DNA from: Vampirovibrio sp.
GTDB lineage: Bacteria > Cyanobacteriota > Vampirovibrionia > Vampirovibrionales > Vampirovibrionaceae
DNA length: 45,380 bases
NCBI GenBank assembly: GCA_021323475.1
Contig: JAJQJM010000004.1
Coordinates: 1-45,380 of the forward strand
Direction of reading: 5' to 3'
The translations under genes were made by a program, and so were the position numbers. Below are positions 1,885 to 41,566 of the stretch, one piece after another; positions within the stretch are counted from its first letter, which is position 1; each line of letters opens with the position of its first letter. A model generated the notes under the pieces. It saw only the letters and a list, made by a program, of their open reading frames with translations. It was not told the DNA's origin and did no database searches.

Positions 1885-3831
1885 CTATGAATCCGATTGC
1901 TCTATGCGTGATGGTAACCCCTCTGCTGACAACATAGTCATTAGTTCCGCTAGTTCTTTTTCCAGCTTTTGCGTTGCCATAGGTTGCTTTTGACGCTCAA
2001 GATAGCGCATGGCCATTTCAATGCCGGCGGGTGTAAAATCTACATTTTTTCGGGTCAGGAATTTGATATTGCGCCATGCCCCATCCCGCCGGGCCTGATG
2101 CTGTTCATGCATGTCATCCTTTATATCGGCTGTGTCGCCGCTCTTTGGCAGCGGCGGTGTACTGGTGAACCAGGCCATCTCATTGCGCAAAACCCAAGGC
2201 ATGTAGTCTAACGATTTTCCATCCGCCAACAGGAACTGCTCCGCCAATTTGAAATCATTGCGTTTGGCCAGTTCCGTCAATAACTGCGGATAACCCTGCC
2301 CTCGATCCAGACGGCCCGTTTTGGCAACCGCATCCATGTAATTTTGAAATTGCTGGTATTGCCGGTTATAGGGCCGTTGCAAGTCTCCTTCATGTTGGAT
2401 CATCCAATCCGCAAGCCGGTTATGCCCACTTTGGACAGCCAGCAGCAACGGGGTGGCCCCATCCACATTCACAGCATTCAGATTGGCGCCCAGTTTTACC
2501 AAGCGCTTCACCATCGGCAGGTTTCCCTGCTGGGCGGCATAATGCAAGGCGGTTTCGCCGCGCCGGTTGGCATGTTGAATATTGACATTTCTATCGAGCA
2601 ATAACTCCAAAACCGGCATGGAATTCCGGCGGGCCGCCAGCAGCAGCGGCGTATTTCCGGCATTGTCCGGCTGCTCAATATCGATGCCCTTTACCCCCAG
2701 TAACGTGCTGACTACTTGCGGATCTTTCCGGTCAATTGCATACCCCAAAGCGGTCAGGCCGTGCCGGTCGGCATGGTTAATAAGCACCTCATCCGGTTTT
2801 TGCAGCAATGCGTTAACAGTATCCGGGTATCCCAGGCGAGCGGCCTGTATCAGAGCCGTATATCCCTCGCGGTGGATTTGGCCGGCATTGGCGCCTTTGG
2901 AAAGCAACCGCTCAACAATATCGGCATGATTATTTTCTGCGGCCAGCAATATGGCGCTATCCCAGGCGTTGGACTGTAAATTGACAAATGCCCCGTTTGC
3001 TAGCAGGGTTTTTACCAGGTCGAGGTATCCTTCCCGCGCTGCCAGCATAAGCGGCGTAAACCCAAGCCGATTGGTGCTGTTGACCAGTGCCCCCGCAAGG
3101 ATTAATTCGTCTGCTGCCTGCAGGCGACCCTCTCGGCAGGCCATCATCAATGGGGTCATGCCTTCAAAATTTTGCGCCTCCAAATTTGCAGGCCGCTGAA
3201 CATTCAACAGCTTGCGAATAATATCGGTATGGCCGCGCTCTGCGGCTAACAACAACGGGGTGCGGCCCACATAATCCGTGGACTCGATAGGCAGGTTCTG
3301 GTCCAGCAGATAGGGCACTGTCTCGACTTGATTATTGTTGACTGCAATTAACAGGGCGTTCATCCCGACGCGATCCACGGAGTGCTTTCTGGCGCCCGCT
3401 GCCAGCAGGATTTTCATGCCGGGTATGAAACCCTTTTTGGCGGCCAGCATCAAGGCGGTCCGCTGATCATAATCGCATTTTTCCAGTTTGATGCCCCGCT
3501 GCCGGGCCAGCAAACGGAGGATTTCCGGCTTGTTATTCTCGGCGGCCAGCATTAAAGCGGTTTTGCCGGTATAAGGGATGGCATGGTTGATATCCAGTTG
3601 CTTGTTACGCAGCAGCTTCTGAATCAGAGGAAGGTTCCCCGCTTCGGCGGCCTTGCAGAGCGATTCGTTCAACACGGATTCCAGTCCGGTCCGTGAGCCG
3701 AAAGAAACCTGATCCCCCGGAACATGGGAACGATTGTGCATCGCGATGTTGGCAAAGCCTTTGGGTAGGACTGAAAAACCCTGTATTGGCCTGTTTTCGA
3801 CAGGCTTTCTATAAGAATGGATTGAAATCAT
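1885..3831 (-). CDS. Ankyrin-repeat protein (13 repeats)
   Basis: The protein is about 650 residues long. Thirteen ankyrin repeats cover roughly residues 60-500, recognisable by the repeated T-P-L-x-L-A-A-R/E-x-G/N core followed by a second helix ending in L-L. The C-terminal 150 residues are helical, charged and not recognised. There is no signal peptide, so it is probably a cytoplasmic or secreted binding scaffold. The ATG at 3831 is chosen because GGGGAAG sits 5 nt upstream. A GTG at 3879, with AGAGGGG upstream, would add 16 residues. It lies downstream of the glycosyltransferase gene on the same strand, with a 240-bp gap. Partners cannot be inferred from the sequence. Confidence 0.9.
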   Translation of the reverse strand: MISIHSYRKPVENRPIQGFSVLPKGFANIAMHNRSHVPGDQVSFGSRTGLESVLNESLCKAAEAGNLPLIQKLLRNKQLDINHAIPYTGKTALMLAAENNKPEILRLLARQRGIKLEKCDYDQRTALMLAAKKGFIPGMKILLAAGARKHSVDRVGMNALLIAVNNNQVETVPYLLDQNLPIESTDYVGRTPLLLAAERGHTDIIRKLLNVQRPANLEAQNFEGMTPLMMACREGRLQAADELILAGALVNSTNRLGFTPLMLAAREGYLDLVKTLLANGAFVNLQSNAWDSAILLAAENNHADIVERLLSKGANAGQIHREGYTALIQAARLGYPDTVNALLQKPDEVLINHADRHGLTALGYAIDRKDPQVVSTLLGVKGIDIEQPDNAGNTPLLLAARRNSMPVLELLLDRNVNIQHANRRGETALHYAAQQGNLPMVKRLVKLGANLNAVNVDGATPLLLAVQSGHNRLADWMIQHEGDLQRPYNRQYQQFQNYMDAVAKTGRLDRGQGYPQLLTELAKRNDFKLAEQFLLADGKSLDYMPWVLRNEMAWFTSTPPLPKSGDTADIKDDMHEQHQARRDGAWRNIKFLTRKNVDFTPAGIEMAMRYLERQKQPMATQKLEKELAELMTMLSAEGLPSRIEQSDS

Positions 3832-4072
3832 GTAATCTTCCCCACTTCTGATCGTCCCCACTTCCAAATTGCGCGACACTCGGCCCCTCTGTCGCCGGGA
3901 AATTCCCTAACGAAATGTTTGGATAATTCTGTCGCAAACGGTAAGGCCGCTGCGAATGGATTACCCCCTCGATGTAGTAGTAAAAGAGATTCGAAAAGCG
4001 ATTATATAAGTCTTACTAAAGTAAAAAAACGTCTGATTGAATAGCGGCCGCTGCCAATACTGACACATTTGT

Positions 4073-21308: not shown

Positions 21309-21833
21309 TTACCAGCTAAACCAGGACGGGTTACGGTTCGTGCTGCCCAGATAGTCATCATAGGTCATCAGGCGTCCGGTCCCTAGAATCACAATGCCTA
21401 AAGATTCCAGTTGCCCTTTGTAGCCATTGGTATCCAATATGCAGGAATACAGGCCGGTACTTCCGGTGATGGAGCCTGACAAGATTAGTATTGAGCCATT
21501 ATGGAGCTTAATACAGGTGTAAGAAGCGCAACTATACGAGGCTGTGCCGTCATTTGGCGTTGAATCCACAAGGCTGGTGGTATCCACCTTGACATAGTTC
21601 ATGTATTGAGTCAGGGAAGAGACAGGGATGGCGGTGGAGGCATCGGTGGCGAGTTTGGCTTTTTGGACCGCTTCACTCAGCATGCCCATGGTTTCCTTGC
21701 CAATGGCCTTATTTTGCCCGTTCTGTTGGGCGGAAATAATTTTGGGAATGGTAAATGTGGCGATTTCAGCCAGAATGGCCAGCGCTATTAACAGCTCGGC
21801 TAACGTGAACCCAGAATTATTCGATTTGGACAT
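21309..21833 (-). CDS. Type IV prepilin-like protein, divergent cluster member
   Basis: This is about 174 residues from ATG 21833, chosen to match the short leaders of its neighbours; the frame continues 15 codons upstream. After the leader it reads S-G-F-T-L-A-E-L-L-I-A-L-A-I-L, a class III prepilin cleavage site with Glu at +5. It then continues A-T-F-T-I-P-K-I-I-S-A-Q-Q-N-G-Q. The body carries Y-S-C-A-S-Y-T-C-I-K-L-H-N-G. It lacks the G-G-T and D-P-D-G segments of the other members but keeps the terminal N-P-S-W-F-S-W. It is likely a minor pilin or pseudopilin inserted in the inner membrane and processed by PilD. It is the most distal gene of the five. Confidence 0.88.
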   Translation of the reverse strand: MSKSNNSGFTLAELLIALAILAEIATFTIPKIISAQQNGQNKAIGKETMGMLSEAVQKAKLATDASTAIPVSSLTQYMNYVKVDTTSLVDSTPNDGTASYSCASYTCIKLHNGSILILSGSITGSTGLYSCILDTNGYKGQLESLGIVILGTGRLMTYDDYLGSTNRNPSWFSW

Positions 21834-22029
21834 GCGGTGAGGTGATTTCTTTGAATGCATTGATGAGGTTATCGGCAAGGAAGAACCAGATCTTTAACAG
21901 TGCCGCAGTTTTCATGATCAGGACGGCAGGTGGAAGGCAAATGGCACGCAGATCTTGCCAGCCTGAGTTTATGGTTTCGGCAAAGAGGAGATGGGGCTGA
22001 CAATCATTACCAAGATGAAATAAGGACAG

Positions 22030-22608
22030 CTACCAACTGAACCAGCTGGGTGTCTCAGAAGCCGGGGCTGGCGTATAGGTATCACAGCTCGATTGGACAG
22101 TAAAAGGAACAGAGCCGCGATCGGTCACTCGTCCATTGTAAAAAACGTGGATTGCCAGTGATTTTCCTGGCCCGGTGTTACTGTTGGAATACTCACCATC
22201 CGGATCGAACATGATGAAGAGTACATGGGTCGTGCTGGTGCCTCCAAAGGAACAGCGATCCATCAATACGCCCCCGTTATGGAGCTTATAACAAGGTTGG
22301 CCAGCGCTACAGGTTAAGCTGCCGAAGTCATTAGTATCATCGATTGTTCCTGATGTCATGATTTTTGTATAGTTTAGATACTGGGTAAAGTCTGAAAGTC
22401 GGGTTGAGCTGGATACCTGCCCACTATTGAGCCACATTTGATAAGCGGCGGATACGGTACTTAACGCTTCTTTTGCTTTCGCATTGCTTTGGCCATTTTG
22501 TGTAGTGGAAATGATCTTGGGGATGGTAAAGGTTGCAATCATTCCCAAGATTGCCAATGTAATCAGCAGCTCTGCTAACGTAAAGGCAGGGTACCGTGTT
22601 TTTGACAT
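22030..22608 (-). CDS. Type IV prepilin-like protein
   Basis: This 192-residue protein has a nine-residue leader region ending P-A, then F-T-L-A-E-L-L-I-T-L-A-I-L-G-M-I. Ala rather than Gly stands before Phe, a tolerated change at the prepilin peptidase site. The body carries L-T-C-S-A-G-Q-P-C-Y-K-L-H-N-G, F-G-G-T-S-T-T-H, D-P-D-G-E and G-P-G-K-S, and ends T-P-S-W-F-S-W. The D-P-D-G loop may bind calcium, as proposed for other minor pilins. No strong Shine-Dalgarno sequence precedes the ATG, as in the rest of the cluster. Its promoter region resembles those of its neighbours. Confidence 0.9.
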   Translation of the reverse strand: MSKTRYPAFTLAELLITLAILGMIATFTIPKIISTTQNGQSNAKAKEALSTVSAAYQMWLNSGQVSSSTRLSDFTQYLNYTKIMTSGTIDDTNDFGSLTCSAGQPCYKLHNGGVLMDRCSFGGTSTTHVLFIMFDPDGEYSNSNTGPGKSLAIHVFYNGRVTDRGSVPFTVQSSCDTYTPAPASETPSWFSW

Positions 22609-22833
22609 TCTAGGCTACTATCCTCTTGGATGGATTGGATATCGGCAGGAATGCCTGAAGCTTTAGCAATGCTGTCGCTGGCCAGTATTTGAGACAGGCA
22701 GTGGAAGGCAAAAGCAAGTGAATGCCTGCGTTTTGATCTACCGCTTCGTAGAACCCTTGTGAGCAAGAGGTAGGGTATTCAACCCGTTAGGCCGAGGACT
22801 TATGGGACGTCAGGTTTATACTGAGCCGCACTG

Positions 22834-23400
22834 TTACCAGCTAAACCAGGAGGGATCATAATTCCCCGGATTGTAAGTGCCGGCGCCGTCCTGACTATTG
22901 GGCGCCATAGTCCCCCAGCTTGTTACCCGGCCATTATAGTATAGGACCCCCCAGATACTACTGGCATTCGCCCCGTAGGCGCCATCCGGATCGATCAGAA
23001 ACCACTGCATATTCGTGGCATTGGTACCTCCAAATGAGCCAATCGTGCCAAATGCGACGATGGCCCCGCTGTGTAACCGCAAACAGGTTCGGCTGGCACA
23101 TGAATACGAGGCGGTATCGTTGGGACTTCCGTCAATGGTGGAGGAGGTATCTACTTTGACATAGTTTATATAAGAAGTGATTGCCGTGATCGATGTATTG
23201 CTGCTGATGACGTTGCTGTTGCCATACAATTGATAAGCTGAGGCCACTGTGGCAAAGGCTTCTTTTGTTTTTGCGTTGTTTTGCCCGTTTTGCTGTGATG
23301 AAATGATTTTGGGAATCGTAAAGGTGGCAATCTCAGCCAAAATTGCCAAAGCGATTAACAGCTCTGCCAAAGTAAAACCAGTATTACGAGTGTTGAACAT
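22834..23400 (-). CDS. Type IV prepilin-like protein
   Basis: This 188-residue member of the tandem family has leader M-F-N-T-R-N-T-G then F-T-L-A-E-L-L-I-A-L-A-I-L-A-E-I, with Glu at +5. The body contains Y-S-C-A-S-R-T-C-L-R-L-H-S-G (a likely disulfide pair), F-G-G-T-N-A-T-N, I-D-P-D-G-A and Y-Y-N-G-R, and ends D-P-S-W-F-S-W. It would be assembled into a pilus or pseudopilus by the PilM/N/O platform, whose genes lie 3.4 kb away. The upstream region keeps the T-T-C-A-G-G-C and G-A-T-T-A-T-C-G blocks found before the next two pilin genes. Confidence 0.92.
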   Translation of the reverse strand: MFNTRNTGFTLAELLIALAILAEIATFTIPKIISSQQNGQNNAKTKEAFATVASAYQLYGNSNVISSNTSITAITSYINYVKVDTSSTIDGSPNDTASYSCASRTCLRLHSGAIVAFGTIGSFGGTNATNMQWFLIDPDGAYGANASSIWGVLYYNGRVTSWGTMAPNSQDGAGTYNPGNYDPSWFSW

Positions 23401-23651
23401 TTCAGGCCGTTATTCTTATCAACTGGCTTGATTATCGGTTGAACCGGCAGAAACTTTAATCATGTGGGGATAGAAGCGAGATAGCTGGCATGATGGTCTA
23501 CGGCAAGCTCTAGAATCGACGAATAGGGTACGATGGATACCTCTTATGGGTCCGTCCTATTTCGCTTGTTCTGGAAAATACATAGTGGGTGAATGGAGTA
23601 AGTATTGGAAATCCTGTCTCTCAGTTCTTATGCCGTAACAGGCCACAAAGA

Positions 23652-24235
23652 TTACCAACTGAACCAAGGTGGTACCAGTGCCGGATTTGGATTATATGTA
23701 GCCGCTGAACTGACCGTGCCAGAGACAATATTCCCCTCATCAGCCATTCTGCCATTGTAGTAAATAAATATACCAACCGCTTTACCCGGCCCGTTGGTTG
23801 TCCCATCTGTCAGCACTCCATCCGGGTCAATGTGTATCCAAAGCCCATTGGTTGTGCTAGTACCACCAAAGGAGGCGTCATTTCGCCACTGAATGACACT
23901 ACCGTTATGCATACGAATGCATTGATAAGTAGTGGAACAGTCCCTGGAAGTGCCCGTATAGACGCTATCCAGGCTTGAGCTGGTGTCAAAAGCCGTGTAG
24001 TTAATGTATGGGGTTAAGTGACTAATCTTGGTGCTGGAAGAGACTCCACCAGCCAGTTGAAGTTGCTGAAAAGCTGCCGCAACAGCCGATAGATCTTCTT
24101 TGGCAACGGCATTGTATTGTGTGTTGGCTTGGCTGTGAGAATTTTAGGTATGGTAAAGGTTGCAATCTCAGCTAGGATTAGCAGTGCAATAAGTATTTCG
24201 GCTAAACTAAAACCCGATAAAGGACTATGAAACAT
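23652..24235 (-). pseudogene. Type IV prepilin-like gene broken by a 1-base frameshift
   Basis: The first part (from 24235) encodes S-G-F-S-L-A-E-I-L-I-A-L-L-I-L and T-I-P-K-I-L-T-A, then loses frame near 24130. Adding one G to the GGCTTGGCTG run there restores A-Q-A-N-T-Q-Y-N-A and an open frame through to V-P-P-W-F-S-W at 23652. The restored protein holds the cysteine pair (C-S-T-T-Y-Q-C-I-R-M-H-N-G), F-G-G-T-S-T-T-N, I-D-P-D-G and G-P-G-K-A-V. Everything except the single missing base looks functional. It is therefore a very recent loss, a phase-variable state or a sequencing error. Confidence 0.85.
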
Positions 24236-24432
24236 TTCAGGCTGCTTCTTAATGGACTGGATTGATTATCGACTAAAGCCCCTGAAACTTTAGAATCGTG
24301 TATGAATATCCTCAGAAAACAAATAAGCTCCTGACTTCGTCAAAACGCTGTCTGGAGCTGAATTTATCTTAAGTTTTAAATGGTGGGCGCTGACGGGCTC
24401 GAACCGCCGACATCCTCCTTGTAAGGGAGGCG
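24232..24432. repeat. Direct repeat copy A (pilin 5' flank plus tRNA-Val 3' part)
   Basis: About 200 bp here match 25306-25506 with a constant offset of 1,074 bp, no gaps and about nine mismatches, all of them transitions. The repeat starts at the pilin start codon and ends inside the tRNA-Val anticodon stem. The pilin coding sequences on either side differ much more than the flanks. Confidence 0.9.
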
Positions 24433-24478
24433 GGCTTTCTCGCTTCGCTCGACGCCAAATGCTTTACCAGCTGAGGGT
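24381..24478 (-). pseudogene. tRNA-Val(UAC) pseudogene with disrupted 5' half
   Basis: Positions 24381-24432 equal the 3' part of the intact tRNA-Val (CCA end, T arm, variable loop, anticodon loop). The 5' part is replaced by about 30 bp including CTCGCTTCGCTCG, followed by a D-arm-like TTTACCAGCTGAG (minus-strand CTCAGCTGGTAAA). No acceptor stem can form, so it is not a working tRNA. Confidence 0.85.
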
Positions 24479-24516
24479 ATTGGCCACTTCGTGAATCCAT
24501 CGTTTGTGTCCTTTTC

Positions 24517-24657
24517 TTAAATCTTGCCGACATTCTTGCCGAGTTGATAACTCACCCATTTGATCACCAATCCCTCAAATACGTCAATGGATAATCCCCT
24601 AGCAATCTGGTGAGCCAACGTCTTGATATAGTCGAGAGTATTTATTCCATACCCGAA
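24517..24657 (-). other. Open-frame remnant of unknown origin
   Basis: A 46-codon minus-strand frame without a start codon encodes Y-I-K-T-L-A-H-Q-I-A-R-G-L-S-I-D-V-F-E-G, ending K-N-V-G-K-I before a stop. It reads like the C-terminus of a real, decayed protein. It lies next to the tRNA pseudogene, where integrase or mobile-element debris is often found. The family is not recognised, and chance openness is possible. Confidence 0.25.
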
Positions 24658-24748
24658 TCAAATCAAGAGCCTTTACGGACGTTGTAGGGAAGTGTATTGG
24701 GCTGAAGTAGAGAATCGACTTAAGCGTGGGATTCTACGGAACACAAGC

Positions 24749-25309
24749 CTACCAGCTAAACCAGGGTGGATCGAGGTTGGGGTTGGTCACATAACCACGG
24801 GTAGTTATTCGCCCATTGTAATAAAGGTAAAATTCAACAGCCTTTCCGGGACCGTTTGTTGTTCCGTCGGTTGTTCCATCTGGATCTATATCAACCCAAA
24901 TCACGTTTGTTGCATTGGTGCCTCCAAAGTTATAAGTTGAACTTCGTCCATATCGCAACATTGCACCGCTATGTAATCTCAAACAATAATTAGCACTGCC
25001 ACCCCCACAGGTGTATGTTCCCCCTGTTTGTTTGTCATCAATTACGGTGCTCGTATCAGTAGCCACATAGTTCATATACGGGGTTAAATCTTCAATTCCA
25101 ACTCCAGCGGTTACTGATGAGTTGTTATGCCGATATTGCTGATAGGCGGCTGAAACCATCGAGGCGGCTTCGTTTGCAATGGCATTATATCTGCTATTAG
25201 ATTGCGCTGTGATGACTTTAGGAATCGTAAAGGTCGCAATCACCCCCAAAATAGCCAAAGCTATCAACAGCTCGGCTAAAGTAAAACCAGTATGACGGGT
25301 TTGAGACAT
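24749..25309 (-). CDS. Type IV prepilin-like protein
   Basis: This 186-residue first member of the tandem cluster has leader M-S-Q-T-R-H-T-G then F-T-L-A-E-L-L-I-A-L-A-I-L-G-V-I, with Glu at +5. The body contains Y-T-C-G-G-G-S-A-N-Y-C-L-R-L-H-S-G, F-G-G-T-N-A-T-N, I-D-P-D-G-T and Y-Y-N-G-R, and ends D-P-P-W-F-S-W. Its upstream flank is almost identical to that of the frameshifted neighbour. It lies just downstream of tRNA-Val on the same strand, so it may be partly co-transcribed with the tRNA. Confidence 0.92.
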   Translation of the reverse strand: MSQTRHTGFTLAELLIALAILGVIATFTIPKVITAQSNSRYNAIANEAASMVSAAYQQYRHNNSSVTAGVGIEDLTPYMNYVATDTSTVIDDKQTGGTYTCGGGSANYCLRLHSGAMLRYGRSSTYNFGGTNATNVIWVDIDPDGTTDGTTNGPGKAVEFYLYYNGRITTRGYVTNPNLDPPWFSW

Positions 25310-25506
25310 TTCAGGCTGCTTCTTAATGGACTGGATTGATTATCGACTAAAGCCCCTGAAACTTTAGAATTGCATATGAGCATCTTCAGAAAACAAATAA
25401 GCTCCTGACTTCGTTAAAACGCTGTCTGGAGCTGAATCTATCTTAAGTTTTAAGTGGTGGGCGCTGACGGGCTCGAACCGCCGACATCCTCCTTGTAAGG
25501 GAGGCG
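25306..25506. repeat. Direct repeat copy B (pilin 5' flank plus tRNA-Val 3' part)
   Basis: This is the partner of 24232-24432, with a constant 1,074-bp offset. This copy joins an intact tRNA-Val, so it is probably the parental arrangement. Confidence 0.9.
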
Positions 25507-25530
25507 CTCTACCAACTGAGCTAAGCGCCC
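25455..25530 (-). tRNA. tRNA-Val (anticodon UAC)
   Basis: The 76-nt minus-strand sequence folds as a full cloverleaf. The acceptor is GGGCGCT/AGCGCCC, the D arm contains GCTCAGTTGGTAGAGC, and the anticodon stem CCTCC/GGAGG holds loop CTTACAA. The T arm contains GGTTCGAGCC-like sequence (GGCGG-TTCGAGC-CCGTC). The anticodon TAC reads valine codons. The 3' CCA is encoded. Confidence 0.97.
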
Positions 25531-26801: not shown

Positions 26802-28427
26802 GTGAGAGATTTAGAGCGTGGCTTTTCTTCCATGACCGTGACCCCTACCAACAAAAAGCCAGTATATGCCGGCTTGTCCATTTCCCATGAGGCGATTGAG
26901 CTGGTGGTGTTCTCACCAAAAACCCTCTCGGTCGAGCAGTCGGTTTCATTGCCGATTCCCGACGGTCTGTTCGATAACGAGCGGGATTCCATCTCTGACC
27001 CCGCTTTGCTGAAGGGGCTGTTGGCCCAGGCGTTTCAAGCCGTTAAATTAAAGCCGGCCACGGTGCATTTGTCGCTGCCGGGCACGTTGCTTCGCATGGT
27101 GGAAATGCCCAAGATGGATCCGAGCGGGCTCTATGTCTCGCTTTCCAGCGAAGCCGAACGCTACAAGACCTTCGATAATACCGAAGCGTCCGTTGATTTT
27201 ATCGTCTGTGAAAATCCCCACCTGCCGCCCAATATGCTGCAATTGGTGCTGGGCGCCGTTCGCAGCGACGTGTTGCACCTGTACCTGAAAACCTTGAAGG
27301 AACTCAAGGTGAAGGTGCACAGCATTGGTCTGGAGCCCTTGAGCATTTTACGGGGCATGGCCGGCACCGGCGTACTGGATAGCCTGGTGCAGCAAATCGG
27401 CACCGATGCCTGCTGGGGTATGATGTTCGTGGAAGCGTCACGGGTGCGTTTTACCCTGTGGCGGTGCGATAAATTGCTGGAACTGCGGGAACTCAGCATG
27501 GATACCCATGAGTTTGTCCATGCCGCACCCGGTTCCATTGTGGTTGAGGACATGCTGGAGGAAATTCGCCGGACGGTGAAAACCGAGCAACCGGTGCTGT
27601 GGTTGACCCACAATATGCCTCCCGCTATGGAAAACGCCTTGGCCGAAGTATTGGGCTGCCCGGTCCGAATGGCGCCGATGGGTAATGCCATCAATATGGG
27701 CCAGCCGTTGCAACTGTCTTCATTGGGGTCGGCTATGACATCCGTCGTGCCTTTCCCCTTTGAATTGGATATTACCGAAGGTATTAAGTCAGCGGGTGGC
27801 AGTTCTGCATCCGCCACATCGGAAGTGGCCGCCGACATCGACAGCGGAGATGGTCCTCCGCCCTGGCTGATTCCGGCTGGTTTCGCCTCGCTGGCGCTGG
27901 GCGGCATCGCATCCGGTATTTTATTTGCGATGGCCAGCATGGCTGCCATGCAAATTCCGGATCTCACCAGTAAAGTGGAATCCGCCAAAGTGGAAGTGGC
28001 CGGTTTGCAAACCCGTCAGGCCGAGCTGAAAAAGAAGGTGGAACTGGATAAGAGCCTGCTGGATATGGTGGAAAAAGCCAAGATCCGCAACCACGTATAC
28101 GTAGCGTTTACGGATGATCTGAAGCGCAAAACCCCGGAACAGCTCTGGGTGCAGCAGTTGCAGGTAAACGACGAAGTGTCGATGGAGGGCAAGGCCCTGA
28201 ATCACCAATCCGTCATTAATTTCGCCAAAAGTTTTGATACGGCCCCCTATACCCGTGCGGTGCTGATTGACTCCATCAAGGAAGGTCGTCTGGGTTCCAG
28301 CCTGGTTTACGATTTCAAAATCAGCGGCGGCGTCAACCTGGATAAGTCCATCATGCCTCCCGCTGCGGCGGCTCCTGTCAGCGATCCGTCTAGTTCCGTC
28401 GTTGAACCGGCCAAATCAGGAGCGTAA
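26802..28427 (+). CDS. Fused PilM-PilN type IV pilus assembly protein
   Basis: The protein is 541 residues long. Residues 20-330 are PilM-like, with an actin-like fold seen as V-Y-A-G-L-S-I-S-H-E-A-I-E-L-V-V, V-H-L-S-L-P-G-T-L-L-R-M-V-E-M-P and Y-L-K-T-L-K-E-L-K-V-K-V-H-S-I-G-L-E-P. After an acidic linker comes one membrane segment (about 353-382), a coiled coil (about 390-430) and a PilN-like C-terminal domain (about 435-510). PilM and PilN normally bind each other as separate proteins, so a fusion joins the cytoplasmic ring to the inner-membrane platform. pilO follows after 2 bp. The start is uncertain: GTG 26802 or ATG 26832. Confidence 0.82.
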   Translation: MRDLERGFSSMTVTPTNKKPVYAGLSISHEAIELVVFSPKTLSVEQSVSLPIPDGLFDNERDSISDPALLKGLLAQAFQAVKLKPATVHLSLPGTLLRMVEMPKMDPSGLYVSLSSEAERYKTFDNTEASVDFIVCENPHLPPNMLQLVLGAVRSDVLHLYLKTLKELKVKVHSIGLEPLSILRGMAGTGVLDSLVQQIGTDACWGMMFVEASRVRFTLWRCDKLLELRELSMDTHEFVHAAPGSIVVEDMLEEIRRTVKTEQPVLWLTHNMPPAMENALAEVLGCPVRMAPMGNAINMGQPLQLSSLGSAMTSVVPFPFELDITEGIKSAGGSSASATSEVAADIDSGDGPPPWLIPAGFASLALGGIASGILFAMASMAAMQIPDLTSKVESAKVEVAGLQTRQAELKKKVELDKSLLDMVEKAKIRNHVYVAFTDDLKRKTPEQLWVQQLQVNDEVSMEGKALNHQSVINFAKSFDTAPYTRAVLIDSIKEGRLGSSLVYDFKISGGVNLDKSIMPPAAAAPVSDPSSSVVEPAKSGA

Positions 28428-28429
28428 TC

Positions 28430-29143
28430 ATGGCACTCAAAAAAAGCGAGAAATTATTGGTCGGCGGCGGTTTGATTGTAGGGGGCATCGCCCTGTTTAT
28501 CGGACTGGGGCTTCCCCAGTGGGATGCCTATAGCAACAGCAATTCCCAGGTGACGGATTTAAATCAGCAGATTACCGATCTGGGTGTCCAAAAAGACACT
28601 TTAAACGCCCAAATCGCGCTACTGGAAAAAAACACGGATATTCCCGCCGGTATTGAAATTAAAACCTACACACCGGACACCAAGGAAGCGACCATTAAGG
28701 AGCTTCTGGATCAGGTGGTGGGTATGGCCACCCAGGCCGGCAACAAATTTATCAGCCTGACGCCCACGGAAGCGGAGCCTATTTTGCCGCCCGCCCCGGC
28801 ATCCAAGGATGGGAAGGCGAAAGAAGGCGATGCCGCCAAGACCACGGAAGCAGGCGCCGCTGCCGCTGCGGATGCCAATGGCGAGAAAAAAGAGCCTGTG
28901 CTACCGGCCCCGATTCTCAGCACGTTTGGCTATGACTTGGCGATTCGAGGCACTTACAACAGCATTCAAAACTTTTTGAAACTGATGGACGACCAGAAGG
29001 CCTTGCTGGAGATCAGCGCCATCCGCCTGGAAAATGAGGCGGCCAGCGATCCGGCAGCCGGTGGTGGCGATAAGGTGACGGATCCCAGTGCGCCCATTCG
29101 GTTGACCGCCAAGCTACGATTGGCCCTGCAACCGATTGAATAA
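28430..29143 (+). CDS. pilO: PilO-like type IV pilus inner-membrane platform protein
   Basis: This 237-residue protein has one N-terminal membrane segment (about 9-28), then a coiled coil (about 37-66, L-N-Q-Q-I-T-D-L-G-V-Q-K-D-T-L). The periplasmic ferredoxin-like PilO domain includes L-D-Q-V-V-G-M-A-T-Q-A-G and, after an insert, G-T-Y-N-S-I-Q-N-F-L-K-L-M-D. The insert at about 123-157 is a low-complexity Ala/Lys/Glu stretch. It dimerises with the PilN part of the upstream fusion. The gene starts 2 bp after pilMN, so the two form an operon. pilP and pilQ, which usually follow, are absent before the phage region. Confidence 0.85.
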   Translation: MALKKSEKLLVGGGLIVGGIALFIGLGLPQWDAYSNSNSQVTDLNQQITDLGVQKDTLNAQIALLEKNTDIPAGIEIKTYTPDTKEATIKELLDQVVGMATQAGNKFISLTPTEAEPILPPAPASKDGKAKEGDAAKTTEAGAAAAADANGEKKEPVLPAPILSTFGYDLAIRGTYNSIQNFLKLMDDQKALLEISAIRLENEAASDPAAGGGDKVTDPSAPIRLTAKLRLALQPIE

Positions 29144-35572: not shown

Positions 35573-35727
35573 GGCTACTAGCTCTGATTGTACAGGTTTA
35601 TGCCTACTGGATGATTGCAAAAGCTGTTGGGATGAAGGAATTTGACCCGACAGCTTTTGTTTTGTCCGTGTGGGGCTGTCATTCCACAGTTGAGTATTTT
35701 TATAAAAGCAAGAGGAAAAAGAGATGA
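35554..35727 (+). CDS. Very small phage membrane protein
   Basis: This 57-residue protein has an N-terminal hydrophobic segment (V-L-G-L-L-A-L-I-V-Q-V-Y-A-Y-W-M-I-A) and a second, weaker one, then a basic tail K-S-K-R-K-K-R. Its stop overlaps the next start as ATGA, supporting real coupling. Start 35554 lies inside the previous gene, with only a weak ribosome-binding site. Confidence 0.5.
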   Translation: MGRTVLGLLALIVQVYAYWMIAKAVGMKEFDPTAFVLSVWGCHSTVEYFYKSKRKKR

Positions 35728-36110
35728 AAACAGAAAATTTAAGCTGGGTTGAAGCTATTAGAGCTTATTCGGATGGGGAGAGGGTAGTGGATATGTTTGG
35801 GTACCAATACTGGCTTGACGGAGAGACCCCAATGTTTAAACATCCTAGCTCCCCTCCTCACCCTTTTTCCTTATCTGCGGAGTTATTCAGGCAGGAAGCT
35901 GGCCCCTTTTCCATCGTTAAACCAGAACCTAAGAAGCTGAGTTTTGATGAGGCGATTGAGATGCTCAGGCGAGGTAAGGCCCCCAAGATCCACTGGCCAT
36001 TAGAAAACCTCGAAGGCGCTGACATTGATGCAAGGAGGCCTTACGCTGTGGATCTTTGCCATCTCGACCTAGCCGAGCGCCGGGGCTGGCCCATTACGGT
36101 AGCTGAATGA
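35724..36110 (+). CDS. Phage hypothetical protein
   Basis: This 128-residue protein contains two similar motifs: L-S-W-V-E-A-I-R-A-Y-S-D-G near the start and L-S-F-D-E-A-I-E-M-L-R-R-G near residue 75. This suggests an internal duplication of a small fold. It ends D-L-A-E-R-R-G-W-P-I-T-V-A-E. GAGGAAAAAGAG precedes the ATG. The function is unknown. Confidence 0.75.
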   Translation: MKTENLSWVEAIRAYSDGERVVDMFGYQYWLDGETPMFKHPSSPPHPFSLSAELFRQEAGPFSIVKPEPKKLSFDEAIEMLRRGKAPKIHWPLENLEGADIDARRPYAVDLCHLDLAERRGWPITVAE

Positions 36111-36238
36111 CCTTCAGAAATTGGTGGGTGGTAGGCACTTACAAACACCGCCACCTACCAGAATCTAAACCTTCGCGCCACTTCTGCCAACAATGCAAGC
36201 TGGCGCATAAGTTATGCAGATGTAAAAAGGAGAAAGAC

Positions 36239-36898
36239 GTGAAACTCAGTGACAAGGTAGACAAGATCCTGCCGGCATTGGCGAAAATCCAAAGCGAGGT
36301 AGAGCTTAAGAAGAACAAGAAAGGCTATAACTACAAATACGCTGACCTTCTGGCCGTCTACGAGGCTATTGAGGTCAATCTGACAGACAGCGGGTTGGTA
36401 GTTGTTCAAACCTTGGATGATACCGGGGTTCAACCGGATCAGGTGTTGATTATAACTAGAATCTACCATATTGAATCCGGGCAGTATGTAGAGAGCCGGT
36501 TAATGATGCTTTCCGGTAACCGTGATCCCCAAGGGTTAGGTTCTGCAATCACTTACGGGCGGCGATACTCCTTGCTGACCATGTTTGGATTGTGTCCAGA
36601 AGATGACGATGCGGCATCCGCCATGCCAACGAAGCCCCAAGCAAAACCAACCGCCAAGCCAACGCAGAAAGCAGCAGCCCCAATTCAAGCCGGTGAGCCC
36701 AGCCCAGCGGTTGAACTTGGAAAGCTAATCTCTGAAGCCTGCAAACTGGCTGGATTAACCAAAGAAGAAGTTCAGAATATCAGCAACCAAAGGTCAATCG
36801 CTGACCTTGTGAAAGCAAATAATATGCCAGCATTGGAACAGGCATGGGCCTTGATTCAAGAGTATTTAACCAAGAAAGGATCGGTGAAAAGTGCCTAA
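36239..36898 (+). CDS. ERF-family single-strand annealing protein
   Basis: The protein is 219 residues from GTG 36239 (AAAAGGAG six bases upstream). The ERF core (about 5-125) includes I-L-P-A-L-A-K-I-Q-S-E-V, G-Y-N-Y-K-Y-A-D-L-L-A-V-Y-E-A-I and the hallmark D-P-Q-G-L-G-S-A-I-T-Y-G-R-R-Y-S-L-L-T-M-F-G-L. A Pro/Lys/Ala linker leads to a small C-terminal helical domain. ERF proteins anneal complementary single strands during phage recombination. An ATG at 36107, overlapping the previous stop, is in the same frame. It would add 44 residues holding F-C-Q-Q-C and L-C-R-C, a possible zinc site. Confidence 0.9.
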   Translation: MKLSDKVDKILPALAKIQSEVELKKNKKGYNYKYADLLAVYEAIEVNLTDSGLVVVQTLDDTGVQPDQVLIITRIYHIESGQYVESRLMMLSGNRDPQGLGSAITYGRRYSLLTMFGLCPEDDDAASAMPTKPQAKPTAKPTQKAAAPIQAGEPSPAVELGKLISEACKLAGLTKEEVQNISNQRSIADLVKANNMPALEQAWALIQEYLTKKGSVKSA

Positions 36899-37112
36899 AA
36901 ACGGAAGCCTCTGGACAAAAAGCTATGAACAGGACGGACAAACGAAAATCAAGTATCAAGGCACCATCGAGCTAGACGGGATTAAGTTTTATATGGACTT
37001 GTACCCTAAAAGCTCTGATAACCCCAAAGCACCAAAGTTTGATGTTTATCTGAAGCCGGTTCAAAAACTGCAAGATGAGCCGAGCATGGAAATGGATGAT
37101 ATCGCTTTCTAG
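36891..37112 (+). CDS. Small phage protein next to ERF
   Basis: This 73-residue protein has a beta-rich pattern (G-S-L-W-T-K-S-Y, I-K-Y-Q-G-T-I-E-L-D-G-I-K-F-Y-M-D-L-Y, P-K-F-D-V-Y-L-K-P) and an acidic end M-E-M-D-D-I-A-F. The acidic hydrophobic tip resembles that of single-strand-binding proteins, and it lies next to an annealing protein. An SSB-like role is only a guess. It overlaps the ERF gene by eight bases. Confidence 0.72.
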   Translation: MPKNGSLWTKSYEQDGQTKIKYQGTIELDGIKFYMDLYPKSSDNPKAPKFDVYLKPVQKLQDEPSMEMDDIAF

Positions 37113-37171
37113 TTAACCAACCCCCAGGCGGAGGGTATCCGCCTATTTGTTTATTTGAAGAGAGGAAATAA

Positions 37172-37438
37172 ATGGAAATCAACCAACAAAAACTGGTCAA
37201 GGTGGACGCTAAGACAATAAAGCTCCATGTAAAAGTTACAGATCGATTCAATGGGGAGCTTATTGATGCTCAAGGTGAGACTATTTTTGATTTTCAAGAC
37301 ACCTACGTTCCTGATTTTTTCCCGGGCCAGCATTACGGCGATTACGTGATTCTCGATATTGATATCGATACCGGAATGATCACCAATTGGAAGACCCCAA
37401 CTGCTGAGCAGATTGAAGAAGCGATTAAAGAAGATTAA
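37172..37438 (+). CDS. Small phage protein
   Basis: This 88-residue acidic protein is beta-rich (T-I-K-L-H-V-K-V-T-D-R-F, G-D-Y-V-I-L-D-I-D-I-D-T-G-M-I) with a helical end. A preceding AGAGGAAATAA serves as ribosome-binding site, and a strong terminator follows. It is unrecognised. Confidence 0.72.
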   Translation: MEINQQKLVKVDAKTIKLHVKVTDRFNGELIDAQGETIFDFQDTYVPDFFPGQHYGDYVILDIDIDTGMITNWKTPTAEQIEEAIKED

Positions 37439-37442
37439 CCAA

Positions 37443-37471
37443 AGGGGAGGCTTAGTCCTCCCCTAATTTTT
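37443..37471 (+). terminator. Rho-independent terminator inside the early operon
   Basis: AGGGGAGG (37443-37450) pairs with CCTCCCCT (37457-37464), loop CTTAGT, then AATTTTT. It splits the rightward operon. Downstream genes need either an antiterminator or another promoter. Confidence 0.85.
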
Positions 37472-37495
37472 CTAAAGTGAGTGAGGAAAGTAAGA

Positions 37496-37618
37496 GTGAA
37501 TGTAGAGCGTTTGATTGATCAGTTTTTTGGAAAGTATTTCTGGCTGGGAATAACGGTTGTAAATGCCTTTTTCGGCTGCCTGGCATTGGCATTGTTTATT
37601 TTGATTCTGGGAGGGTAA
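37496..37618 (+). CDS. Very small phage membrane protein
   Basis: This 40-residue GTG-started protein is mostly one hydrophobic segment (F-W-L-G-I-T-V-V-N-A-F-F-G-C-L-A-L-A-L-F). GAGGAAAG lies upstream. It is directly followed by the next gene, which starts one base after its stop. Confidence 0.5.
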   Translation: MNVERLIDQFFGKYFWLGITVVNAFFGCLALALFILILGG

Positions 37619-37753
37619 ATGACAATAACAACACCCCCTTGGGGATTATTTGTCGATGGAAAGCTAGTGTACTGGTTTGATACACCAGAAAGAGCTAGAG
37701 ATTACGCACAGTTCTATGGGTTACAGAATTTTAGTGTGGAGTTGATTGAGTGA
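37619..37753 (+). CDS. Very small phage protein
   Basis: This 44-residue protein (M-T-I-T-T-P-P-W-G-L-F-V-D-G, then F-D-T-P-E-R-A-R-D-Y-A-Q) starts right after the previous stop, with GGAGGG upstream. Its stop overlaps the next GTG start (GTGA). The tight coupling on both sides supports it. Confidence 0.6.
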   Translation: MTITTPPWGLFVDGKLVYWFDTPERARDYAQFYGLQNFSVELIE

Positions 37754-38205
37754 AAGAAACCACTTTCTGCACCGAGATCGTGAAGTCCATCCGTAAAATA
37801 GGTGGCTGGGCTTATAAAATCCCTGACATGCCTTACCACGCTATTAGAACCCAGGGCGTCCGGTTTGTTGGGAGGAAGCCGTTTGACATTGCAGCTTGCT
37901 ACGAAGGCCAGCCGTTAGCGATTGAATGCAAACTCTACCGGGACTTTAAGGGCTTCGGCTTGAACCAGTTACGGGATGAGCAGATACAGGCGCTTAATGA
38001 TTTCTGGGAAGCCGGAGGCAAGGCGCTTGTGTTCCTGAATATCCGAATCACCGGCATTAAAGGAAAACGAAAACACGAAAACCGGCTGTTAGCCTTTGAA
38101 TGGCCTATGCGGTTTCATTCCAAGAAGGAAATCGAAGAAATGGCTTATATCCAAGGGAGCCGGGGTGAGTTTGAGCTTAAGACGATATTGGAGAGTTTGA
38201 AATGA
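37750..38205 (+). CDS. PD-(D/E)XK nuclease, RecU/Holliday-resolvase-like
   Basis: This 151-residue protein has a conserved nuclease core: P-F-D-I-A-A (Asp 46), then L-A-I-E-C-K (Glu 59, Lys 61). L-N-Q-L-R-D-E-Q-I-Q-A-L follows, the helix typical of RecU-type and related resolvases. Phage enzymes of this kind cut branched DNA during recombination and replication. It sits downstream of ERF, which fits. The start GTG overlaps the previous gene, and the stop overlaps the next ATG. Confidence 0.8.
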   Translation: MKETTFCTEIVKSIRKIGGWAYKIPDMPYHAIRTQGVRFVGRKPFDIAACYEGQPLAIECKLYRDFKGFGLNQLRDEQIQALNDFWEAGGKALVFLNIRITGIKGKRKHENRLLAFEWPMRFHSKKEIEEMAYIQGSRGEFELKTILESLK

Positions 38206-38519
38206 GCTGGTTAACGATTGATACAGCACCGAAGGATGGGAAACGAATTATTGGCGGTGAATGGCGTACAGTAAAAGCCTACACTGACCACAAAGGGAAC
38301 CTTATCACACCGGAACGTACGTTCTTTGTTCAGTATTATTGCCGATGGTACACCACTGAGCAGTTGCAAGAATTGGAAAATACTTACGACCTGGAAGATG
38401 ATGATCCGTTTTTTAAACCAGGGTTTTGTGAAGAGGGGCCCGGTGATATGTATGATGAGGTAGCTGTTAAATGTAACCCGACCCATTGGGCCCCAATCCT
38501 CCCACCCCCGGAGGTCTAA
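38202..38519 (+). CDS. DUF551-like phage protein
   Basis: This 105-residue protein has the two family marks: an N-terminal W-L-T-I-D-T-A-P-K-D-G-K-R-I and a C-terminal P-T-H-W-A-P-I-L-P-P-P. Between them is an acidic insert. The family is widespread in phages and of unknown function. ATGA couples it to the upstream nuclease and TAATG to the downstream one. Confidence 0.8.
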   Translation: MSWLTIDTAPKDGKRIIGGEWRTVKAYTDHKGNLITPERTFFVQYYCRWYTTEQLQELENTYDLEDDDPFFKPGFCEEGPGDMYDEVAVKCNPTHWAPILPPPEV

Positions 38520-38923
38520 TGCCTATCGGATTCAGCAAAGATCAACAACTACGCCATTATAACGAGAGAAAACAAGCAAAGTCGGCCAAACAGAAGGGTA
38601 TACAAGCAGAGAAATCCGTTCAAGCTGAATTTCAATCCACCAGCAAGAAACCAGTTCGGCGCAACCACCAGGGGAAACATGGAGGCGGAATATCAAACAG
38701 CGATGTCTCTATGCATGGCTGGAGTTTGGAGGTTAAAAACACCGAACGCCTGTCTATTCCTGAATGGTTGAGAACTTTAAAAAAAGAAACACCAGTGACC
38801 AATAAACCGGCGCTGGTGTTTACGTTTGAAGAAGAACAATGGATAGCAATAAAACTCAAGGATAGGTTGAGTTTCGCAGCGGATCAGGTGGAAGCCGCTG
38901 GGGGAGAAGTCACATTCCACTAA
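38519..38923 (+). CDS. Probable phage PD-(D/E)XK endonuclease
   Basis: This 134-residue protein reads N-S-D-V-S-M-H-G-W-S-L-E-V-K-N-T, giving Asp 62, Glu 71 and Lys 73 in the D...ExK arrangement. An early glutamate (K-G-I-Q-A-E-K-S-V) may complete the active site. Basic residues precede it (K-K-P-V-R-R-N-H-Q-G-K-H-G-G-G). It is likely a second structure-specific or Holliday-type nuclease. GGAGG lies four bases before the ATG. The longer frame from 38486 is not supported. Confidence 0.75.
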   Translation: MPIGFSKDQQLRHYNERKQAKSAKQKGIQAEKSVQAEFQSTSKKPVRRNHQGKHGGGISNSDVSMHGWSLEVKNTERLSIPEWLRTLKKETPVTNKPALVFTFEEEQWIAIKLKDRLSFAADQVEAAGGEVTFH

Positions 38924-38956
38924 TAACATAGTTGACGCAATGAGGAGGAACAGAAA

Positions 38957-39703
38957 ATGGCAGTATACGCAGAAGACCACCGCGTGAAGGTTGAATCAAA
39001 TTACAACAAGTTCAAACTGATTCACAATAACCGGGATATTAACCCGTCGAACGTCGAAAATCTGGTCAAGTCTATCAAAAAAGAGGATCTATCTGAATAC
39101 TTCCCAATTTTAGTAAATAGCAAAATGGAAATCATTGATGGGCAGCACAGGTTCCACGCTTTGAAACGTTTAAACCTGCCTATCCGGTACAAAGTGGTAA
39201 AAAATGCCGAGCCTGAAATGGTGGCCCAAATCAATCAAAACCAGAAAGCCTGGAATGTAGTTGATTTCATCAAGTTTGAGGCAGGTATGGGAAATACAAA
39301 TTTCCAAAATCTATATGCCGATATGCAAAAGTACAATATGACCCACACTTCCATCTTGGGTTTTATTCTCCGAGATCAAAACCACAACAAAAAAATCAAG
39401 ATTAAAACACTGGTTTATGGCCCTACTCAATCAAATGAAGTTGCTCGATTCCTGAAAGAAGTTCAGATTTTCAAAAACTTGCCGTTCGGAACTCATCGCA
39501 ACTTTTACTTTGCTTTCTCCAAGCTTAGGAGCCACTACAAATACGATACAGCCGTAATGATCCATCAGGCCAGTAAATACAGTTCAGTGTTAACACCTCA
39601 AGTGACACGCGAGGGTTATTTTGAGCAGTTGGTTTACCTCTACAACTACAACCGTCGAGGTAATAAAGGTGGTTTAATCAATCTCCGTGATTTTGACGTA
39701 TAA
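38957..39703 (+). CDS. ParB-like N-terminal domain protein
   Basis: This 248-residue protein has a ParB/Srx fold in residues 15-100: I-N-P-S-N-V-E-N-L-V-K-S-I, F-P-I-L-V-N, and I-I-D-G-Q-H-R-F-H-A-L-K-R-L with the nucleotide-binding G-x-H-R (62-65). The remainder is helical and Lys/Tyr/Asn-rich and is not a typical ParB DNA-binding domain. It starts after GAGGAGG. A second ParB-like gene follows after 12 bp. The role may be in DNA binding or regulation rather than partition; no ParA is present. Confidence 0.85.
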   Translation: MAVYAEDHRVKVESNYNKFKLIHNNRDINPSNVENLVKSIKKEDLSEYFPILVNSKMEIIDGQHRFHALKRLNLPIRYKVVKNAEPEMVAQINQNQKAWNVVDFIKFEAGMGNTNFQNLYADMQKYNMTHTSILGFILRDQNHNKKIKIKTLVYGPTQSNEVARFLKEVQIFKNLPFGTHRNFYFAFSKLRSHYKYDTAVMIHQASKYSSVLTPQVTREGYFEQLVYLYNYNRRGNKGGLINLRDFDV

Positions 39704-39715
39704 GGGAGAGGGCTT

Positions 39716-40810
39716 ATGCAAGTGGCAATCAACGATATCAAGATTGGCAGCAGACGAGAGGTTGACCAGAAAAATGTTCTGAAGCTGTCTGAAAGCATCA
39801 AAGCAATCGGGTTGCAAAATCCAATTGTCCTGACGGAAGATTACACCCTTGTTTCCGGGCGTCACCGCCTGGAAGCTGTCAAAATGTTGGGTCATGACCT
39901 TGTAGAAGCCAATATTCTGCCTCTCTCTTCGGAGGAGGCAGAATTGGCTGAAATTGACGAGAACTTAATCCGAAAGGACTTGAGTTTTCTGGAACAGGGC
40001 CAACTCATCAAACGTCGGGAAGAGATTCTTGATGCTATGGGGCTAAGGGCAAAATCCGGTAGCCAACCAGGGAATCAAAAAGCCATAAAAAACAAGTCTG
40101 CGCCAAACGTAGACTTGTTTAAGACAACAAAGGATTTGGCTGATGATCTTGGATTAAAAGAAACGGCTATATACGATCGTAAAAGAGTTGCAACCAATAT
40201 AGCCCCGGGGGTACAAGAGGCCATCATCGGCACCCCATTAGCTGATAAAGCAAACCAATTAAAAGAGCTGGCCAAAAAAACACCTGAGCAACAAAAGACA
40301 ATTGTTGAGGTGATTACTTCAGGAAAAGCAGAAACCGTATGGGAGGCTGAGAACATTGCGGATGCGCCGAAAAAACAAGAGAAGCCAAAAGCGGTCATTG
40401 ATGAGGCGGCGACCTATGAGATTGTATATGCCAACCCTGAGTATAGAAGCGGCATCACGCCGTTAAGGAAGCTACTAAGCCGGTATCAAATTGCGGATAA
40501 TGCTACGCTGTTCCTATGGGCCACGGACAAAGAGTTGGAAGTGGCCCTGAACCTCGGGAAAGAATGGGGTTTCAAATACAAGGGAGCTTCTTTTATCTGG
40601 GATAAACGGTATGTCACGCAGGGCCAATATAACGAGATTGTCCACGCGCATCTGCTTATCTTTGTGAAAGGGAGCCACCATCCCACACAGAAAAAACCAA
40701 CAATCGGCAGCATCATCACGCGTGAAGCTCCCGATTTCTCCAAAAAACCGGAAGTCTTCAAAGAAATTATTAGTGAGTTGTTTGATGGTATAGCGATATT
40801 GGAAGTTTGA
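39716..40810 (+). CDS. ParB-like domain fused to MT-A70-like methyltransferase domain
   Basis: This is a 364-residue protein. Residues 1-85 form a ParB fold with L-V-S-G-R-H-R-L-E-A-V (G-R-H-R at 48-51). Residues 85-205 are the helical ParB middle (S-F-L-E-Q-G-Q-L-I-K-R, T-K-D-L-A-D-D-L-G-L). After a Lys/Pro linker, residues 233-364 match MT-A70 adenine methyltransferases: Y-E-I-V-Y-A-N-P-E-Y, A-T-L-F-L-W-A-T-D-K-E-L-E-V-A-L, E-W-G-F-K-Y-K and a late R-E-A-P-D-F-S-K-K-P-E-V. The catalytic D-P-P-W is replaced by N-P-E-Y (240-243). It could be a weak, altered or dead methylase guided by the ParB part. Confidence 0.85.
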   Translation: MQVAINDIKIGSRREVDQKNVLKLSESIKAIGLQNPIVLTEDYTLVSGRHRLEAVKMLGHDLVEANILPLSSEEAELAEIDENLIRKDLSFLEQGQLIKRREEILDAMGLRAKSGSQPGNQKAIKNKSAPNVDLFKTTKDLADDLGLKETAIYDRKRVATNIAPGVQEAIIGTPLADKANQLKELAKKTPEQQKTIVEVITSGKAETVWEAENIADAPKKQEKPKAVIDEAATYEIVYANPEYRSGITPLRKLLSRYQIADNATLFLWATDKELEVALNLGKEWGFKYKGASFIWDKRYVTQGQYNEIVHAHLLIFVKGSHHPTQKKPTIGSIITREAPDFSKKPEVFKEIISELFDGIAILEV

Positions 40811-40819
40811 GGCAGTGAA

Positions 40820-41566
40820 ATGGCAAGGACGAGAGATTTACGTCCGGGCTTCTTTAAGAATGAGGATCTTGCAGAGTGCCAACCACTAACGAGACTCTTG
40901 TTTGCAGGGCTTTGGACGATAGCGGATAGAGAGGGCCGGTTGCAAGACCGGCCTAAACGTATAAAGACTGAAATACTCCCGTACGATGAATGCGACATTG
41001 ACCAGCTTTTAAACGAGCTTGAACGATTCGGATTTATCGTTAGATATGAAATAGAAGGAAATCGGTTTATTGAAATCACGCGGTTTTTGGAAAATCAACG
41101 GATTCACCCAAAAGAGCCACCTAGCGTGATTCCTGAGCCGACCGCGGAAAGCCGCGGCAAAACAGCGGCTAATCGCACTATTCCTTCTTTTCCTACTATT
41201 CCTACTTTGCCTACTTCACCCCTAACCCCCAAAGGGGAGGAGGAGGGTTTCCAGCAATTCTGGAATGAGTATCCCAAAAAGACGACCAAAAAAGAATCGT
41301 CCGACTATTGGCGTAAAAACAAACTGGATGCGAAGTTACCCGAGATACTGAATGGTTTAGCTGCCTGGAAGACCAGTTCTCAATGGGTAAAGGATGCAGG
41401 TCAGTATGTTCCAGACGCCATCCGATTCCTGAAAAAAGAGCGGTGGATGGATGAAGTTCCACCCACTATCTCTAAACCGATTAGCCAACTCAGAGGCAGC
41501 CAAATCCCTGCCGCTGGAATTCCACAGGCCCATGAGCGAGTAGAAAGGTCAGGGAAGATCCTATGA
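40820..41566 (+). CDS. Phage replication initiator/organiser-like protein
   Basis: This 248-residue protein has an N-terminal winged-helix region (about 1-95) typical of phage replisome organisers: R-P-G-F-F-K-N-E-D-L-A, then L-L-F-A-G-L-W-T-I-A-D-R-E-G-R-L-Q-D-R-P. A Pro/Thr/Ser linker follows (about 95-135). The C-terminal domain begins F-Q-Q-F-W-N-E-Y-P-K-K, a theme of DnaT/DnaD-like proteins. It probably binds the phage origin and recruits the helicase loader encoded next, whose ATG overlaps its stop. An origin may lie inside or near this gene, but no iterons were identified. Confidence 0.85.
   Translation: MARTRDLRPGFFKNEDLAECQPLTRLLFAGLWTIADREGRLQDRPKRIKTEILPYDECDIDQLLNELERFGFIVRYEIEGNRFIEITRFLENQRIHPKEPPSVIPEPTAESRGKTAANRTIPSFPTIPTLPTSPLTPKGEEEGFQQFWNEYPKKTTKKESSDYWRKNKLDAKLPEILNGLAAWKTSSQWVKDAGQYVPDAIRFLKKERWMDEVPPTISKPISQLRGSQIPAAGIPQAHERVERSGKIL

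Follow-up and report, generated by a model that had tools for sequence, protein, structure and literature searches.

Why five adjacent genes for putatively minor prepilins should all end in the same residues, W-F-S-W, is the question raised by an array at positions 21309-25309 of the window (the whole stretch of DNA analysed here, 45,380 nucleotides of contig JAJQJM010000004.1 from the Vampirovibrio sp. assembly GCA_021323475.1). The array lies on contig C133 of this 3.34-Mb assembly (G000), which is placed in the same genus, Vampirovibrio, as its named relatives. The original prediction took the tail for a recognition signal read by an assembly or surface partner, or for the mark of an adhesive tip array. 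Judged from the aligned sequences, the W-F-S-W end is a family trait, ordinary for its family, and not a special tag. With moderate confidence we favour another reading: the array appears to belong to a FliA-driven, attack-phase pilin repertoire that is partly phase-variable and may be used in prey contact.

The five genes and the promoter-like site upstream of each are as follows (all on the minus strand; site scores are out of 16).

21309..21833, minus: prepilin copy E; tail NPSWFSW; lacks FGGT and DPDG; N_methyl above cut-off
21869..21896, minus: FliA-like promoter, copy E; TAAAGATC-N12-GCCGATAA; 14/16, spacer 12
22030..22608, minus: prepilin copy D; tail TPSWFSW; N_methyl above cut-off
22639..22665, minus: FliA-like promoter, copy D; 14/16
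22834..23400, minus: prepilin copy C; tail DPSWFSW; N_methyl above cut-off
23432..23458, minus: FliA-like promoter, copy C; TAAAGTTT-N11-ACCGATAA; 15/16
23652..24235, minus: prepilin copy B; frameshift near 24130; tail in the downstream frame VPPWFSW, stop at 23652
24266..24292, minus: FliA-like promoter, copy B; letters identical to those of the copy A promoter
24749..25309, minus: prepilin copy A; tail DPPWFSW; N_methyl above cut-off; mature part modelled with AlphaFold2
25340..25366, minus: FliA-like promoter, copy A; TAAAGTTT-N11-GTCGATAA; 15/16

The tails of all five products were as first described (P-[S/P]-W-F-S-W), and FGGT and DPDG were indeed present in four of the five, both being absent from copy E. 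The Cys pair before xLH[N/S]G, said to be common to all, was found in four; the frameshifted copy B reads C-I-R-M-H-N-G, with M for L. Since the copies are full-length homologues (40-52% identity to copy A), they share motifs far above chance. For copy E the listed TTG start (21878) falls inside its promoter-like site, and the ATG at 21833 is therefore favoured as the start.

The window array is, by homology, one local cluster of a family that is dispersed in many copies over Vampirovibrio genomes. Searches with copy A (24749) gave 36 matches in its own genome, fragments counted, and matches in 8 of the 10 genomes of the taxonomic family. A profile search at E 1e-12 found the family in 15 of 18 genomes of the order, the other three being without a match at that threshold; there were 33 matches in G000, 42 in G006 (V. 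chlorellavorus NCIMB 11383, the type strain), 39 in G008 (the metagenome-assembled genome Umea1_bin-2013), 11 in G007, 8 in G009, 14 in G015 and 1-6 in the others. From 141 open reading frames (ORFs) matching the query, 121 with a prepilin motif and at least 140 residues were kept and one over-long ORF was dropped, leaving 120 members in seven genomes. These carry the N-terminal cleavage and methylation motif of type IV prepilins, with F+1 and E+5, the latter in 120 of 120. The Pfam family N_methyl was above its cut-off in all four intact window copies, and at E 0.01 it was recognised in 36 of the 38 members aligned. It is near certain, on this sequence evidence, that the copies are homologous and form one genus-wide prepilin family. 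The possibility that they travel as a mobile cassette with common boundaries was considered and rejected: by BLAST of the flanks, dispersed copies have 5' leaders in common, and no common 3' flank could be established except between tandem neighbours.

All five window copies are preceded by a FliA-like site. The pattern TAAAGTTT-N11-GCCGATAA, read in the upstream DNA, agrees with what we take to be the consensus of E. coli sigma-28 (FliA). When a hit was defined as a score of at least 12 of 16 at spacer 11, such a site stood upstream of 83/110 members, compared with 12/314 control ORFs, in five Vampirovibrio genomes (members: G000 21/23, G006 32/38, G007 6/10, G008 19/32, G009 5/7; controls: 2/36, 5/99, 1/37, 3/113 and 1/29 in the same order). 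Two of the 34 G008 members had too little upstream DNA and were left out. The pooled Fisher test gave p ~1e-50, with related copies treated as independent, and shuffled upstream DNA of these genomes scored at a background rate of 3-6%. Genome-wide, with up to 2 mismatches, there were 70 sites in G000 versus 34 for the reversed pattern (83 versus 43 in G006), and family members follow 6 of the 7 exact sites in G000 and 13 of its 24 sites with at most one mismatch. A spacer one base shorter, used as a spacing control, gave no excess across G000 (21 versus 46 reversed). The orthologue ending in Y[LI]xNWN is without a site in all five genomes (scores 8-10). Outside this set none of 6 members in G002 reached 12, and 1 of 2 in G001 did, with spacer 12.

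The sites lie at the distance expected of a promoter, all 10 genomes of the taxonomic family have a FliA protein above cut-off, and the G000 sites outside the prepilin family include one flagellin gene and a TadE-like gene. Other such sites look unrelated or oddly placed, for example beside a RecA-like reading frame, and thus not every FliA-like site is a promoter. Taken together, the upstream sequences make FliA control of the family very likely. Prepilin-like genes outside the family (L275, L293, L269) were also seen behind FliA-like sites. Similar sites, scoring 12-14 of 16, precede prepilins in other families of the order (L362, L363, L365, L383), so this control may predate the genus. Identity figures for the upstream DNA were discarded, as shuffled DNA aligned almost as well under the gap settings used.

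In some relatives the leaders of these genes also contain simple repeat tracts. Between -300 and +20 of the mature start, a tract was found at 11/38 members in G006 (two of them only A8), 1/10 in G007 and 11/34 in G008 (one being a G9 far upstream); poly-C of at least 8 accounts for 9/38, 1/10 and 10/34, respectively. The poly-C tract lies between start and gene in all of these members of G006 and G007 and in 9 of the 34 in G008, where the tenth is upstream of its promoter. The same scan found no tract at members of G009, G001 and G002, and at the 23 members of G000 a single T8 at -195, with neither poly-C of at least 9 nor (GACA)5. The gene bodies of the scanned members contain 0-1 tracts per genome. 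Across G006, 6 of 15 poly-C tracts of at least 9 are in leaders of this family; in G008, 8 of 23 lie within 240 nucleotides upstream of members (seven in leaders, the eighth upstream of the promoter), and two more are found at contig ends behind the same promoter type. (GACA)5 occurs at 3 places in four genomes, every one in a family leader, and the 26-C tract and the (CAGA)7 tract are present in the named record of NCIMB 11383 too.

Among ten tract-bearing copies of G006 and G007, a start preceded by a Shine-Dalgarno-like sequence is in frame with the gene in 3, out of frame in 6 and unclear in 1. Behind the tract the gene is intact in all ten; its frame stays open as far back as the tract or across it, and no in-frame start lies between the two. 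In phase-variable surface genes, as in Neisseria, the reading frame has a poly-C or tetranucleotide tract at its 5' end. The Vampirovibrio relatives resemble them in having 5' tracts, in or before the reading frame, and both in-frame and out-of-frame copies in one genome; unlike them, they have the tracts within the leader of the prepilin and in numerous paralogues belonging to a single family, and the switching here is predicted from sequence. The pattern is that of phase-variable genes, and phase variation in the relatives appears likely. A C11 tract was also seen in G000 close behind an ATG, ahead of an unidentified reading frame (C201, L400 510-520).

These observations could be accommodated by the following scheme. 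Each prepilin gene would be transcribed separately from a FliA (sigma-28) type promoter, and swimming cells in search of prey would produce the repertoire along with flagellin. The prepilins would be assembled by the ordinary type IV pilus machinery, a PilM-PilN gene being located 1.5 kb from the array. In the relatives, slippage at tracts close behind the start codon would switch single members on or off, and so vary the displayed set. We tentatively suggest a combinatorial attack-phase pilus coat, in which tens of unlinked FliA-fired prepilin genes, some of them tract-switched, present a cell-specific set of pilins to the algal prey. A role in prey contact, drawn by analogy, is plausible but rather less than probable.

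Such a coat would be the counterpart, within the cyanobacterial phylum, of the attack programme that FliA runs in Bdellovibrio. There, FliA controls TAD (type IVb) pilin genes required for predation (PMC5430801). The likeness is to the pilin genes flp1 and flp2, which the flagellar sigma factor controls in an obligate predator, with expression in attack phase reported for Bdellovibrio and predicted here. The flp genes of Bdellovibrio, four in number, belong to the Flp/TAD class, and FliA controls two of these within one operon (PMC5430801); by contrast, Vampirovibrio would have N_methyl-class prepilins in tens of single units, in an unrelated lineage and under regulation that is only predicted. 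V. chlorellavorus is described as using its flagellum to reach prey and fibrils to attach (PMC4913114). Genes for type IV pili are reported in the paper on its genome, whose passages covered here do not mention a prepilin expansion (PMC4451040). Searches of the open-licence PMC literature, as far as its texts were covered, returned nothing on phase variation or FliA in Vampirovibrio, or on pilin expansion or type IV pilin in Melainabacteria; subscription papers and preprints were outside their scope. If the reading is true, pilins stand under the flagellar sigma factor in two unrelated obligate predators, which suggests a general attack-phase logic, and the reading would explain, in a form that can be tested, how an alga-killing bacterium might vary its surface.

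As to the tail, it is neither confined to the five genes nor added to a family whose constraints are otherwise N-terminal, as had been thought. The 120 members end in WFSW (47), another WFxW (22), a looser aromatic pattern (29) or neither (22), so that an aromatic or WFxW end is kept in 98/120 members over seven genomes; in G000 the figures are 11, 3, 3 and 6 of 23. Among the 22 'neither' are members ending in DPSWFSL and DPPWFQ, two copies that run on past WFSW, and several more remote N-terminal relatives. The end is thus under constraint, as predicted, and its retention in sister genomes is not explained by recent copying alone. However, the Cys pair, LHxG and DPD are conserved across the members as well, and these other blocks are as strong as the tail. 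In other genera of the taxonomic family the end is Y/W-I/L-x-x-W-N; ends seen in other families of the order are DPTYYSQ, TPNYYRQ, DPEYLIEWTDG and DPAWLVL, and some members there are without such an end.

Codon use suggests how the tail has been inherited. Its Ser codon is AGY in 43 of 47 WFSW members, versus 1007 of 2281 other Ser codons, which argues for descent. The same codon use led us to abandon the idea of the tail as a DNA element, raised by an apparent likeness, by eye, of tail DNA to a tRNA D-arm. A stray piece of tail DNA, TGGTTTAGCTGGTAA, lies in non-coding sequence about 70 nucleotides upstream of the G008 copy at C20:126167 (L109), and is perhaps the relic of a lost copy. The mature part of copy A was modelled from an alignment of 38 sequences (predicted local distance difference test, pLDDT, 94.0; predicted template modelling score, pTM, 0.85). 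The model has a helix at 4-55 followed by strands, the long N-terminal helix and beta-rich head of type IV prepilins; unlike in known type IV prepilins, the head domain has no Pfam match, and no close structural relative was found by Foldseek, the best match being weak (3sok FimA, E 0.014). Tail residues 171-179 are predicted to be ordered (mean pLDDT 95, which reflects order, not burial). On the model, the W-F-x-W tail is most readily understood as part of the fold of the shared head domain, passed on by descent. An adhesive surface role is possible, and is suggested by regulation and copy number, not by the tail.

That the tail serves instead as a recognition signal for a partner, or builds an adhesive tip array, now seems very unlikely. 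Its retention at the end of most members (WFxW in 69/120) is what such a signal would leave, but a sorting tag would have fixed residues at the very C-terminus. Here the letters vary (WFTW, WFNW, WFQW, WFTGF, YLANWN), residues such as N, Q, E, DD or NN trail behind, two copies run on for 3 and 11 residues, and the tail is ordered in the model. Nor was the expected acceptor gene seen: no neighbour family recurs within 4 kb of the G006 and G008 loci (at most 3 of 23 loci in G006), distant acceptors being outside this search. Equally improbable, or slightly more so, is that the copies are pseudopilins of a type II-like or competence-like secretion machine and not pilus subunits. The N-terminal helix is weakly similar to ComGE and GspG; however, all these matches are under the curated cut-offs (ComGE 32.4-41.4 bits versus 49), a pseudopilus would hardly be expected to have tens of copies in parallel, and the machinery nearby is PilM-PilN. 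A more serious competitor, though still unlikely, is plain gene-family expansion, in which copies spread in tandem and by dispersal together with their promoter, spare copies degenerate, and promoter and tail are passengers with no repertoire in use. Copy B is a frameshifted local duplicate with part of tRNA-Val, other copies in G000 are broken or cut, and for about half of the members the closest relative lies within their own genome (12/23 in G000, 18/38 in G006, 17/34 in G008). Yet for nearly half of the members the closest relative comes from a different genome, and the majority of copies are intact; five genomes retain promoter and tail with middles that differ by about half, and the tracts are concentrated in family leaders.

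Several points weigh against the FliA-driven repertoire. The FliA consensus is that of E. coli and not one fitted to known sites of the genus, and 27 of 110 members are without a site (G008 accounts for 13, out of 32 tested). The control ORFs were unmatched for intergenic position, and some lie within operons; 12 controls also reach the threshold. Neither the window's own genome nor G009 has poly-C or tetranucleotide tracts at members. Each tract length was read from a single assembly and could be in error; in G008, several leaders are long enough that other starts may lie within them, and an 18-C tract is located upstream of the promoter. The proposed contact with prey rests on analogy, and Bdellovibrio pilin mutants still bind prey (PMC5430801).

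The remaining features near the array are these.

24132..24431, no strand assigned: direct repeat of 300 nucleotides, 86% to 25206-25505; 5' part of the gene, promoter and 3' part of tRNA-Val
25455..25530, minus: tRNA-Val, adjoining the array
26802..28427, plus: PilM-PilN fusion, type IV pilus assembly; PilN and PilM_2 above cut-off
28430..29143, plus: PilO-like protein, named by position; family matches weak, none above cut-off

Because the repeat includes the promoter and a piece of tRNA-Val, copy B is, on sequence evidence, the product of a local duplication that took part of this tRNA gene along. Past the tRNA piece, the sequence of the second repeat copy is unrelated. The pilM-pilN and pilO-like genes are on the strand opposite to the array. 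Elsewhere in the window, 1885-3879 encodes an ankyrin-repeat-like protein of 664 residues, for which every NCBIfam match is under cut-off. Not far past pilMNO, phage-like genes occupy 35724-41566 (ERF recombinase, ParB_N-like and, below cut-off, Hjc-like).

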